This document shows positions 1,548 through 8,671 of a DNA stretch of 50,102 nt, piece by piece. The notes beneath the pieces are model-generated. The model ran no database searches. It saw only the letters and a list, made by a program, of their open reading frames with translations, and had not been told where the DNA came from. A program made the position numbers and the translations under genes. This DNA comes from a bacterium. Lineage in GTDB: Bacteria > Campylobacterota > Campylobacteria > Campylobacterales > Sulfurovaceae. The stretch is from NCBI GenBank assembly GCA_018822805.1, contig JAHJJU010000004.1, forward strand, positions 1 to 50,102, read 5' to 3'. The number at the start of each line of letters is the position of its first letter. The stretch's first letter is position 1.

Positions 1548-2249
1548 CTATTTCTTTTTAATATAAACCGACCCACAAAAACGATCAAAAGTTTGAATAA
1601 TTCGACTCATTCGATCATTGGCTCGTAGTTCTGAAAAGGGTCGTTCATCGTGAAACCAGAGTAGGTTAGGGACATCTTTTCGTAGGTGGGTGTCGGCTGC
1701 TTTTGTTTTTCCACCTTCTAACTCCATAACATAGTAGAGAGCAGGGTAGTAGGTGTACTCTTCAAAAGTAGAAATAACAACATCATACGCAGTAAAATCG
1801 GCTAACACTTTGTTGATGTTTTGCTCGGCTATGACAATCTCTTTTTCAAGGTCGGCTCTTAATTGAACAGCTTGGTCATCGGTAATAGCTGACTCTGGAT
1901 CTGTTAGTTCTTTTTCTAAATAAACTCGTGATTTGTTTTTCCATATTTCAAACTCAGCAGGAAGGGCTTGTTTTACTTTTGCCGGGTCAAATATCTCTTT
2001 CTTTTTATGTTTCATAGAGAGGGTATATTTAAAAGCCGGATGTTCAGGATTGATAATTTTAGCATAGTCATAAAAGTAGTTTTTCTTCTCAACACCTTTT
2101 TCAATCTCATTGGCACGAACGGTGAGTTCTAGTTGTAATACTTTGTCGAGTTCAATACGGTTTAAAAGATGCAGCACAATACCTTTGTACTCAATACGCT
2201 TACTCATTTCCAATATAGAGTTTAACTCTTTTATAATGCTATTTTTCAT
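1548..2249 (-). CDS. Hypothetical protein, 233 aa
   Basis: I do not recognise this protein. It is soluble, charged and largely helical in appearance, with no signal peptide and no membrane segment. The ATG at 2249 has an AGGA five bases upstream, so the start is credible. It converges on the AAA ATPase with a 22-base gap and lies downstream of xerH on the same strand, about 100 bases away. Its top-strand base composition has G at or above C, unlike minus-strand genes to the right of 9 kb; this fits a skew change near 3.5 kb rather than foreign origin. The ORF is long and has a good ribosome site, so it is probably real. Confidence 0.7.
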   Translation of the reverse strand: MKNSIIKELNSILEMSKRIEYKGIVLHLLNRIELDKVLQLELTVRANEIEKGVEKKNYFYDYAKIINPEHPAFKYTLSMKHKKKEIFDPAKVKQALPAEFEIWKNKSRVYLEKELTDPESAITDDQAVQLRADLEKEIVIAEQNINKVLADFTAYDVVISTFEEYTYYPALYYVMELEGGKTKAADTHLRKDVPNLLWFHDERPFSELRANDRMSRIIQTFDRFCGSVYIKKK

Positions 2250-2350: not shown

Positions 2351-3445
2351 CTAAAAATGTTTATTATTAAACATCTCATCCAAAACATCCGTAGCTTTTC
2401 GTCGTCGATCATTATCCATGTGTGTGTAGGCTCTTGTGGTAGCAGGGTCTTCATGTCGCATCATGTCTTGAACCAGTGCCAAATCTTTTACTTTACTGTA
2501 GAGCAGGGTGCCATAAGTATGTCGTAAGAGGTGAGCACCCTCTTTGTCTTTGACGATTCCTGCGTAGTGAAGCAGCTCTTTTATTTTATGTGACACCGAA
2601 GAGGCACTTGCTTCACGTTTAGCATTTTGAGGGGAACAAAAGAGTAGATTATTGGGGCAAGAGTACTCACGTAACCATAGAGTATAGTAAGGGTGAAGAG
2701 CCAATTTTGGTACCTCTATAATGGAGTTTTTATTTCCTTTTCCTACGATTTTTATTAGGAAATAGTTTCCTTTTTCTTGAATTTTATTTTTTTCTATAGA
2801 GAGAGCCTCTGAAATTCGGATACCGGTATGTAAAATAAGACGCACAATCAAATTATAAAATAGGGCAGAGCGATCAGAAATAAATTTATAAGTATCTAAG
2901 CCATTTAAAAAGATTTGTACCTCCTCTTCTGTAAGATAAGAAGGGATTTTATTACCTTTTTTTCCTGAGAGTCCTTGCCAATTTGCAAGTTTTAAATGAT
3001 AAATATAGCCGTTACCACTGTTTGGTTCATTTTCATTGTGGTCGGAGAGATAGGCAAAAAAGTTACTGATGGCATTTCGGTAGTTTTTTTTACTTGCATC
3101 ACTCATTCCTGCTGTATTCGACGTGAGATAATCTATAACCATTTCATCGTTTATCTCTTTTAGAGAGTAGATATTTTGCAACATTAAATAGTCAAAGAGT
3201 TTACGAACAGGTATATAAAATGTTTTAACACCTTCAATACCACCTTTACGGATCTCTTTGACGATTTCAGAAATCTCATCTATAGAAGCAGGGGCGTTAT
3301 TGAGCCTTGTTATGGCAGTTTGTATGATGAATTGATGTTTAACATTACGTGATGAAAGGGTATTGGTTTTATATTTGACATAACGTGTAATCCAAAATAA
3401 GAGGGATTCCTTGGTAGAAGCATCGATATCTAGTGGAAAACGCAT
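2351..3445 (-). CDS. xerH: Tyrosine recombinase XerH
   Basis: This is a single-recombinase (Xer-type) site-specific recombinase that resolves chromosome dimers at the terminus in Campylobacterota. All catalytic residues are present: R210 (HTGIRISEAL), K236 (VGKGNK), H305 and R308 (HLLRHTYGTLL), H331 (MMRHED) and nucleophile Y340 (TTRAYTH). The length of 364 residues and the overall motif pattern match the XerH proteins of Helicobacter and Campylobacter (about 360 aa), rather than the shorter XerC/XerD (about 300 aa). Residues 1-190 form the core-binding domain. It could in principle be a mobile-element integrase, but the adjacent dif-like site and the absence of phage or element genes favour chromosomal XerH. 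Confidence 0.9.
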   Translation of the reverse strand: MRFPLDIDASTKESLLFWITRYVKYKTNTLSSRNVKHQFIIQTAITRLNNAPASIDEISEIVKEIRKGGIEGVKTFYIPVRKLFDYLMLQNIYSLKEINDEMVIDYLTSNTAGMSDASKKNYRNAISNFFAYLSDHNENEPNSGNGYIYHLKLANWQGLSGKKGNKIPSYLTEEEVQIFLNGLDTYKFISDRSALFYNLIVRLILHTGIRISEALSIEKNKIQEKGNYFLIKIVGKGNKNSIIEVPKLALHPYYTLWLREYSCPNNLLFCSPQNAKREASASSVSHKIKELLHYAGIVKDKEGAHLLRHTYGTLLYSKVKDLALVQDMMRHEDPATTRAYTHMDNDRRRKATDVLDEMFNNKHF

Positions 3446-3535: not shown

Positions 3536-3563
3536 TTTTCAGGAAAGGTGAATTTCCTGAAAA
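3536..3563. other. difH: dif-like chromosome dimer resolution site
   Basis: Two perfect 11-bp inverted arms, TTTTCAGGAAA (3536-3546) and TTTCCTGAAAA (3553-3563), flank a 6-bp centre, GGTGAA. The symmetry stops exactly at 28 bp, which is the dif layout of 11 + 6 + 11. The site lies 91 bases upstream of the xerH start. As I recall, the cognate site often lies beside xerH in this phylum. An operator or attenuator is the alternative, but no gene start is placed to use it that way except xerH itself. Confidence 0.75.
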
Positions 3564-3641: not shown

Positions 3642-3761
3642 ATGCTTATTTCGTTTAGAAGAAGATTCATGAAAAATAGCAAAAAAGAAATGAAAATGAA
3701 ATGGTTTTGTCTGCTACTCACTGTATTTAGTGGTTTTTACCATTTGGTTAACATAATATAA
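3642..3761 (+). CDS. Possible 39-aa single-span membrane peptide
   Basis: A short reading frame starts at ATG 3642 with an AGGA ribosome site eight bases upstream, and ends at TAA 3759-3761. The product would have a strongly basic N-terminus (RRR, then several lysines) followed by one hydrophobic stretch (WFCLLLTVFSGFYHL), as in small inner-membrane proteins. An in-frame ATG at 3669 is an alternative start. It lies alone between the dif-like site and the TetR operator array. I know of no homologue. In AT-rich DNA such a frame can arise by chance, so confidence is low. Confidence 0.3.
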   Translation: MLISFRRRFMKNSKKEMKMKWFCLLLTVFSGFYHLVNII

Positions 3762-3807
3762 ATTCTATACTATAAATAGATACACTCACTTCGGAGAAAA
3801 ACAACAA

Positions 3808-3939
3808 GGAACATTTGTTCCTACTTAAGTGTAGTGTTTTGAAAAAATAAAGAACAAATGTTCATACATATAATTAAAACATAAGAACACTTGTTCTTCT
3901 AATAAGTTATAAAAAACTTGACAAAAGGAACATTTGTTC
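3808..3939. promoter_or_regulatory. Four-copy TetR operator array
   Basis: Four palindromes of form GAACAnnTGTTC lie at 3809-3820 (GGAACATTTGTTCC with flanks), 3852-3863, 3885-3896 (flanks extend to AAGAAC...GTTCTT) and 3928-3939. Their centres are 43, 33 and 43 bp apart, near whole helical turns, so bound dimers would face the same side of the DNA. The last copy lies inside the promoter spacer of the TetR gene, implying autorepression. The motif and placement are seen directly; the identity of the binding protein is inferred. Confidence 0.8.
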
Positions 3940-3947
3940 ACTATAAT
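3918..3947 (+). promoter_or_regulatory. Sigma70 promoter of the TetR gene
   Basis: TTGACA (3918-3923) and TATAAT (3942-3947) are both consensus, separated by 18 bases. One copy of the GAACAnnTGTTC operator (3928-3939) fills most of the spacer, so a bound repressor would block polymerase. A perfect -35 box stands out, because most other promoters in this window show only a -10 box. Confidence 0.85.
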
Positions 3948-3991
3948 GCTTTTAATACTATGAATAGTTGTTTTATAAAAGGGGATTTAAG

Positions 3992-4633
3992 ATGTTAATT
4001 GACACCACAGCACCTAGAAAGAGTACCAAAGAGCTTATTTTGGAAGTATCGTTAAAGCTTTTTTCTAAAAAAGGCTATAAATCGACCTCTGTACGTGATA
4101 TCGCAGCTGATGTGGGTATAACACAAAGTGGTCTCTATAACCATTTTAAAGGAAAAGATGCCATTTTAGAAGCCTTAATAGGAGATTTAATGTCCTCTGC
4201 CATTGTAAAAATATTTAAAGACAGAAGCATTGATGACTTGGCACAAACAGGTAAGTCCCTACTCTTTTCGATTGCGACAACATTTAAACTTATCAGTTTT
4301 GATAGAAAAAATGAGGTACTCTTTAAATTTTTAATGCAAGAGTTATATAAAAACAGTACAATTCGCGATATTTACAATGAGCATTTTTACCAAGGTAATG
4401 TCAAAAAACTCTCTTCAGTTTTTTTTATTATGATGCAACAAGAGAAGATAAAGCCGGCAGATCCACTCTTTTTAGCACATGAGTTTTTCGCCCCACTCTT
4501 TTTTTACCAAATGCAGGTAAATTTGCTTAAAGTTGACAGTAAATCGACCTCCTCCATGGTGACTTTGTTTGAAAAACATGTTGATTACTTTTGGGAAAAC
4601 AATAAAATAGCCAAACAAGAGAGCCTATTTTAG
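3992..4633 (+). CDS. TetR/AcrR family transcriptional regulator
   Basis: The 213-residue protein has an N-terminal TetR DNA-binding domain, with the helix-turn-helix around residues 33-52 (TSVRDIAADVGITQSGLYNHF). The C-terminal two-thirds is a divergent ligand-binding and dimerisation domain. I place the start at ATG 3992, where AGGGGA at 3980-3985 is well spaced; an in-frame TTG at 3968 would add eight residues but lacks a ribosome site. Four operator-like palindromes and a strong promoter lie immediately upstream, so the protein probably represses its own transcription. The methyltransferase 32 bases downstream is probably co-transcribed. The ligand is unknown. Confidence 0.9.
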   Translation: MLIDTTAPRKSTKELILEVSLKLFSKKGYKSTSVRDIAADVGITQSGLYNHFKGKDAILEALIGDLMSSAIVKIFKDRSIDDLAQTGKSLLFSIATTFKLISFDRKNEVLFKFLMQELYKNSTIRDIYNEHFYQGNVKKLSSVFFIMMQQEKIKPADPLFLAHEFFAPLFFYQMQVNLLKVDSKSTSSMVTLFEKHVDYFWENNKIAKQESLF

Positions 4634-7426: not shown

Positions 7427-8671
7427 ATGACCAAATACAACCTAATCATAATCGGAGCAGGAGCAGCAGGAATGATGGCTGCCATTACAGCAGCACGTAA
7501 CAAGCATAAAGTTCTATTACTAGAAAAACTTCCAAAAATCGGTGCCAAACTCAAAGCCACGGGTGGTGGGCGTTGTAACCTAACCAATACCCTTTCAAAT
7601 GAAGATTTTATGAGCCGTTTTGGTCGAGAGGGGCGATTTATGACACCTGCTCTAGAAGCATTAGACTATAAAGCACTTCAAAACTTTTTTAATGAAATAG
7701 GAGTAGAAACCCATGCTCCTGATGGGTTTCGTGTTTTTCCAGTTGGGCATAATGCAGGTACGATTATAAAAGCTCTGGAACTAGAAATGGACAAATTGGG
7801 TGTAGAGGTTCTCTGTTCTCAAAAAGTAGAACGTTTAGAACATGATGGTTCAAAAGTTACAGGAGTCTCTACACAAAGCGATACTTTTTTTGCCGACAAT
7901 GTCATCATCGCTTCGGGTGGTATGGGGTACCCGGTTTTAGGTGCCGAGGGTGATGGATACCCTTTAGCAGAGTCGGTTGGGCATAACGTAACCGAACTGT
8001 ACCCAGCCATGATGCCTCTAAAAACTAAAGAGATCTGGGGTACAAATTGCAGGGCTGATACTTTGGCAAAAGTTGAATTGCGTGTTGATATAAAAAAATA
8101 TAAAAAACTCCATGCCATCGGCGATTTGATATTTACTAAAAATGGAATCAGAGGACCAGTGGTGTTGGATTTTTCTCGTGAAATCACTCCCCTGCTTTCA
8201 AAGTTTGATGAAGTTCCTATGTTGATGAACCTTACTAAAGGAATGAATGAAGAGCAAATTCGCGAGCACTTTAAAAAAGAGATAACCAAAACTCCTGACC
8301 ATACTGTAGCCTCTTTGGTTCAAACGCTTCTGCCTGAATCTGTAGTTTTAGAACTCTGTAAATTGGCTGATGCCAACCCTACCCTAACTTTAGGAAAACT
8401 CTCAGGAGTAGTTCGGGACAAGCTCATTAAACTTTTGGTGTGGACACCTTTGACCGTCAATGGACACGATGGTTTTAAAATGGCAATGATAACCCGTGGA
8501 GGCATTTCATTAAAAGAGATAGATCCCGACACCATGCAGAGTAAAAAGATAAAAGGACTTTATTTTTGTGGAGAAGTAATGAATCTGGATGGTCCTTGTG
8601 GTGGGTATAACTTGCAATGGTCTTTTGCGAGTGGATATTTAGCTGGATTATTAAAAGGATATATTACTTAA
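7427..8671 (+). CDS. HI0933/YhiN-family FAD-dependent oxidoreductase
   Basis: The 414-residue protein begins with an FAD-binding Rossmann motif (IIGAGAAGMMAA, about residues 7-18), followed by the family signature GAKLKATGGGRCNLTN. It ends with the second FAD contact, GLYFCGEVMNLDGPCGGYNLQ. This is the HI0933-like flavoprotein family, which includes the protein annotated as aminoacetone oxidase. The in vivo substrate in most bacteria is not established. The length is normal for the family. It is monocistronic as far as can be seen, with a divergent lipocalin-like gene upstream. The stop codon lies inside copy 4 of the 20-bp repeat. Confidence 0.92.
   Translation: MTKYNLIIIGAGAAGMMAAITAARNKHKVLLLEKLPKIGAKLKATGGGRCNLTNTLSNEDFMSRFGREGRFMTPALEALDYKALQNFFNEIGVETHAPDGFRVFPVGHNAGTIIKALELEMDKLGVEVLCSQKVERLEHDGSKVTGVSTQSDTFFADNVIIASGGMGYPVLGAEGDGYPLAESVGHNVTELYPAMMPLKTKEIWGTNCRADTLAKVELRVDIKKYKKLHAIGDLIFTKNGIRGPVVLDFSREITPLLSKFDEVPMLMNLTKGMNEEQIREHFKKEITKTPDHTVASLVQTLLPESVVLELCKLADANPTLTLGKLSGVVRDKLIKLLVWTPLTVNGHDGFKMAMITRGGISLKEIDPDTMQSKKIKGLYFCGEVMNLDGPCGGYNLQWSFASGYLAGLLKGYIT

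Follow-up and report, generated by a model that had tools for sequence, protein, structure and literature searches.

The 28-bp palindrome adjoining xerH in the window (the whole 50,102-nucleotide stretch of Sulfurovum DNA analysed here) is probably the recombination site of the neighbouring, divergent XerH-family recombinase, and the pair would constitute a second, independent Xer module located ~30-260 bp from the canonical dif at the terminus (Table 1). Each type of Xer system is known already, but the presence of both sites in one Campylobacterota genome appears to be new, and our search of the literature retrieved no description of the two together in a genome of this phylum.

Table 1. Xer-related features of the window and their neighbours
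Feature	Position	Strand	Basis or context
orf233, conserved protein of unknown family	1548..2249	-	Far flank of the xerH module; directly follows dif where xerH is absent
xerH-type tyrosine recombinase, 364 aa	2351..3445	-	PF18644 and PF00589; homology to H. pylori XerH
Candidate XerH-type recombination site	3536..3563	.	Perfect 11-6-11, single copy, conserved with xerH
Canonical XerC/XerD dif, ATAGTATAGAA-TTTATA-TTATGTTAACC	3746..3773	-	Core identical to published Sulfurovum dif
TetR-family regulator gene	3968..4633	+	Conserved neighbour beyond dif; context, outside the Xer module
HI0933/BaiN-like flavoprotein gene	7427..8671	+	Conserved dif-side neighbour in relatives; context

A canonical dif and a probable second Xer site in one intergenic gap

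The 28-mer reads TTTTCAGGAAA-GGTGAA-TTTCCTGAAAA, and on the minus strand, which carries both xerH and dif, its centre is TTCACC. The palindrome is real: each arm is the exact reverse complement of the other, with pairing that stops at base 28, as the original prediction had it, and the XerH-type recombinase that it placed beside the site is encoded by an ORF with its ATG at 3445. The predicted form of an Xer site likewise held up, in the 11-6-11 shape, the linkage to xerH, the location at the terminus and the copy number, which is one in the 2.79 Mb draft genome containing the window (search with up to 3 mismatches). At this base composition, ~0.07 perfect 11-6-11 palindromes are expected per 50 kb, and ~0.8 pairs of 11-bp arms when the spacer may be anything from 0 to 12; the window has 7 such pairs. 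Chance expectation is thus weak evidence for the 28-mer, and the case rests on comparison between genomes.

The same gap contains a canonical dif, separated from the palindrome by 182 bp when both are counted as 28-bp sites. Sulfurovum has been published as an XerCD/dif organism, with the dif of strain NBC37-1 (...TTTTTTAATAGAATTTATATTATGTTAATCAATA...) located 2.4 kb from the skew switch (PMC2731167, Table 2), and the 20-bp core at 3748-3767 (minus strand) of the window is identical to that sequence. A search of the whole draft found this core exactly once. It is this site, and not the 28-mer, that displays the hallmarks of a dif, namely 28 bp, a conserved XerD arm, a single copy and location at ter. 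As expected, GC skew decreases from one side of dif to the other on most contigs, skew being readable on contigs only, most of them a few kb long. The window's genome (G000) also encodes an XerD-like protein (274 aa, contig C6; 76-86% identical to genus orthologues), an XerC-like protein (282 aa, contig C90; 67-79% identical to genus orthologues) and an FtsK with the gamma domain. The ftsK contig additionally carries an integron integrase (TIGR02249, 417 bits) at G000:C98:25305-26273 (L102:2306-3274).

Because the canonical dif lies so close, with XerC, XerD and FtsK-gamma encoded, the 28-mer is an extra, second Xer site rather than the main dif of the lineage. The original prediction had taken it for the dif of a single-recombinase lineage, a claim to be given up should a better dif appear near the skew switch; the canonical XerC/XerD dif, single copy and common to members of the genus with neither xerH nor the 28-mer, is exactly that, and XerC, XerD and the XerH-type gene are all encoded. 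The form, single copy and xerH linkage of the palindrome would suit a main or only chromosomal dif, but given the neighbouring canonical site, the presence of XerC and XerD, and the absence of the 28-mer from most dif-bearing members of the genus, such a role is scarcely credible for the lineage. It is possible for two relatives, G001 and G025, in which dif, XerC and XerD were not found; in G001, no dif was detected between the 28-mer and the HI0933-like gene, the usual dif neighbour.

A divergent XerH under constraint

The protein aligns end to end with H. pylori XerH (5jjv; E 1e-68) and, as in other XerH proteins, this homology is accompanied by the PF18644 N-domain, which places it in the XerH family. 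Its catalytic residues R210, K236, H305, R308, H331 and Y340 are invariant in seven homologues and correspond residue by residue to R213, K239, H309, R312, H335 and Y344 of H. pylori XerH (PMC5241119). In the latter, K290 reads the outer thymine of difH (PMC5241119); the equivalent position in Sulfurovum XerH appears to be occupied by an invariant histidine (H286), as in E. coli XerD. Identity of Sulfurovum XerH to other XerH is 36-48%, and in a tree with eight XerH from other families, XerH proteins being the sole outgroup, it forms its own strongly supported clade. In named genome contigs, the relatives of this recombinase come from MAGs of uncultured Sulfurovum or Campylobacteraceae/Epsilonproteobacteria. 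The dN/dS values of xerH (0.03-0.16), xerD (0.05-0.13) and xerC (0.08-0.21) indicate purifying selection on XerH as well as on XerC/D.

Conservation of the site with xerH

Among 34 Sulfurovum genomes, of which all the relatives are draft MAGs, the core of the 28-mer was found in 7 (G000, G001, G021, G023, G025, G031 and G032), once in each, and every one of these 7 carries an xerH-type gene. As the original prediction had anticipated, the 28 bp are conserved while the flanks vary: 20 of the 28 columns are invariant, versus 1 of 40 and 3 of 40 in the flanks. In the orientation of xerH, the centre reads TTCACC in five genomes, TTCATC in G025 and GATGAA in G001; since gene orientation is the same in G001, the centre has been turned round there. 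At this inverted site (L037:12720-12747), the adjoining canonical dif is missing. No convincing 28-mer (≤3 mismatches) was found in G020, whose xerH is disrupted by a deletion, or in G017 and G027, two xerH carriers whose contigs end on the site side. Beyond the genus, no site was recognised in 299 genomes of the order (≤2 mismatches); the matches were scattered, most of those examined lay within coding regions, among them some in a GEKMSKSLGN segment resembling cysS, and no Xer gene neighboured any of the 30 loci examined.

The spacing between the 28-mer and dif is 30 bp in G021 and G032, 178 bp in G031, 182 bp in G000 and 256 bp in G023, and their relative orientation is constant in 5 of the 5 genomes with both sites. 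Matches to dif with 2 mismatches in G017, G025, G003, G006 and G012 had no flanking signature and were excluded from the counts. In G021, G032, G001 and G025, a second and divergent recombinase gene, int2 (~318-328 aa), separates the site from xerH. In relatives without xerH (G019, G030, G010 and G009), dif is followed directly by orf233, and the xerH module therefore occupies exactly the interval flanked by these two.

This arrangement bears on whether the palindrome could be an intrinsic terminator or an operator of xerH. A terminator scan flags positions 3536-3563, followed by TTTTGTTTT, and in the window the palindrome lies 90 bp upstream of xerH. However, in the four genomes with int2, the site is ~1.2 kb from xerH, and in G021 and G032 it nevertheless remains next to dif, which argues against a promoter element or operator. 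The 28-mer is located between two divergent genes, so that no gene reads into it, and the centre, which would be the loop, is conserved but the T tail is not; a Rho-independent terminator would have both a gene reading in and a conserved T tail. Synteny thus largely refutes the operator and terminator readings, which are very improbable.

Several further features of the neighbourhood were recorded. The 233-aa product of orf233 had no Pfam or NCBIfam match, and its AlphaFold model is of low confidence (pLDDT 55); the gene adjoins dif with or without xerH and is preceded by a conserved TATATTACTTAAAAGTGAAA motif. Upstream of the TetR gene, the window contains several palindromes, GAACAAATGTTC / GGAACATTTGTTC (3809-3944), one of them inside a perfect TTGACA-18-TATAAT promoter (3918-3947), and similar repeats precede the TetR gene at L033:5169-5286; these palindromes probably serve TetR autoregulation. 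Finally, a perfect palindrome, AATCATAACATAAT-N5-ATTATGTTATGATT, with an extra half site resembling the XerD arm of dif, lies between int2 and xerH (L035:14889-14921, also L034:6613-6647 and L037:13756-13788), and is a candidate operator or further recombination site.

Distribution of Xer systems and age of the module

Dif, XerC, XerD, XerH and the 28-mer are all present in G000, G021, G023 and G032, and G031 has dif and the 28-mer with a fragment of XerC and, at a contig end, a fragment of XerH. Thirteen genomes encode XerC and/or XerD without XerH. Conversely, XerH is present in G001, G025, G017 and G027, where XerC and XerD were not detected. In G017 (99% complete), xerH encodes the only PF00589 match and the only intact tyrosine recombinase detected, the start of int2 being located at a contig end; XerH is thus the only Xer recombinase among the detected proteins of G017, as in difH/XerH systems, but not in G000. 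Two genomes, G013 and G016 (estimated 95-98% complete), had no detectable PF00589 tyrosine recombinase and no recognisable Xer system. Overall, xerH occurs in 5 of 18 genomes with XerC/D and in 5 of 16 without, showing no association with loss of XerCD. Given this, and the near-complete genomes with neither system, replacement of XerCD by XerH is a possibility rather than a demonstrated trend.

XerH divergence rises with rpoB divergence for most pairs of genomes, G021-G032 with its more similar xerH genes being the exception, and the xerH carriers are scattered on the rpoB tree of the genus. Together, these patterns favour an old module with many losses over a recent spread.

The patchy presence on the genus tree could also be that of a mobile or formerly mobile element (28-mer, int2 and xerH) that settled by dif, the 28-mer being an attachment or internal resolution site with no part in dimer resolution. 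This reading is rather unlikely, but several observations agree with it: comparison with the empty relatives shows a precise insertion of the module at the dif-orf233 junction; int2 has matches among integrase families of the phage type; in G025 the module lies away from dif, together with a remnant of the orf233 promoter; and elements are known to settle at dif (PMC5357621). However, with one 28-mer per genome and no second copy of dif, there is no attL/attR pair, that is, none of the duplicated att or dif sites around cargo that mark an IMEX or other integrated element, and the module contains no other cargo gene. Viral contigs yielded no XerH relative and two matches to the site pattern, both without Xer genes, and plasmids yielded only distant integrases (under 60% identity, best 28%). 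The congruence of XerH with rpoB for most pairs and the same ter synteny in many species also speak against mobility. Counting against an independent XerH module, int2 lies between the site and xerH in four genomes, so the site could originally have belonged to an element of two genes.

Discussion

Terminus location, single copy, xerH linkage and purifying selection make chromosome dimer resolution the best-supported role for XerH and the 28-mer. Judging from sequence comparison, binding, cleavage and dimer resolution by XerH at the 28-mer, and their dependence on FtsK, could proceed as follows. Two XerH monomers would bind the two identical 11-bp arms and, on a chromosome dimer, two copies of the 28-mer, brought together at the septum by FtsK as in H. 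pylori, would synapse as a tetramer. Y340 would cut at the edges of the asymmetric 6-bp centre, with the matching centre sequence setting polarity, and strand exchange would convert the dimer to monomers. In a genome of this kind, two routes would lead to monomers, one through XerCD acting at dif and the other through XerH acting at the 28-mer.

Aligned by the published cleavage position, the arms end in GGAAA here and in GAAAA in difH, 4 of 5 positions being the same (sequences from PMC2731167 and PMC3325230), and mutating that G or the A run of the difH arm abolished recombination in H. pylori (PMC3325230). In H. pylori difH, unequal arms of 11 and 10 bp order the reaction, and a synthetic difH retained activity with two left arms (PMC5241119). 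Since the natural 28-mer is fully symmetric, strand exchange must be ordered by something other than the arms: the centre, FtsK or a further factor.

Against dimer resolution by XerH, it can be argued that genomes with a working-looking XerCD/dif should need no second system. Indeed, the 28-mer might be a relic, with XerCD now resolving dimers and XerH retained for another role, such as decatenation or plasmid resolution. Intact XerCD and dif accompany XerH in these genomes, and xerH has been lost in many relatives without visible cost; yet the arms and centre of the site and XerH itself are all still under constraint, and at least one relative (G017) has xerH only. We consider a relic improbable.

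The closest known counterpart of the XerH/28-mer pair is difH/XerH of Helicobacter and Campylobacter (PMC2731167, PMC3325230, PMC5241119), in which a single tyrosine recombinase of about the same length (~360 aa), with PF18644 and PF00589 and the same catalytic residues, is likewise encoded by a gene linked to a palindromic site of the 28-bp scale at the terminus. The sites differ, with TTTTCAGGAAA here versus AGTTATGAAAA in difH; the published difH consensus (TGAAAAC...TTTTCAAA) is not matched by the 28-mer, which has only the inner GnAAA in common with it. Perfectly symmetric arms replace the 11/10-bp pair, H286 replaces K290, and XerH coexists here with XerCD and a canonical dif. The dif/XerCD system published for Sulfurovum and Sulfurimonas (PMC2731167) is found intact in this genome, with its canonical dif in the same gap, and differs from the XerH pair in a site sequence unrelated to the 28-mer and in having two recombinases, encoded elsewhere. 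Two kinds of Xer recombinase also occur in Lactobacillus helveticus DPC 4571, which has XerC, XerD and XerS together and was suggested to be an evolutionary intermediate (PMC3025954); there, a site was found for neither system, whereas here both sites are identified, adjacent and present in several species. Dif/XerL of Legionellales (PMC9765430) resembles the XerH pair in its single recombinase and long, uninterrupted inverted-repeat arms, but the recombinase belongs to another family, dif is far from xerL, and XerCD is absent from the genome. IMEX that use XerCD (PMC5357621) are likewise located at dif, but the module described here has no second dif copy or cargo, and has its own recombinase and its own site.

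Campylobacterota have been described as split between an XerCD/dif group, including Sulfurovum and Sulfurimonas, and an XerH/difH group (PMC2731167). A genome that combines the two recombinase types with their two sites, at a distance of 182 bp, breaks this division. Tentatively, two complete and independent dimer resolution systems, XerCD/dif and the divergent XerH with its own palindromic site, may have been kept at one terminus through much of Sulfurovum, with XerH the sole system in some lineages; the genus might then capture the exchange of one published Campylobacterota system for the other, in both intermediate and final states. The dual genomes provide a natural setting for studying how one Xer system replaces another. 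The dual terminus raises the question of whether FtsK can serve a pair of unrelated Xer complexes at a single location, and the symmetric 28-mer that of how the order of strand exchange is set when H. pylori difH uses arm asymmetry.
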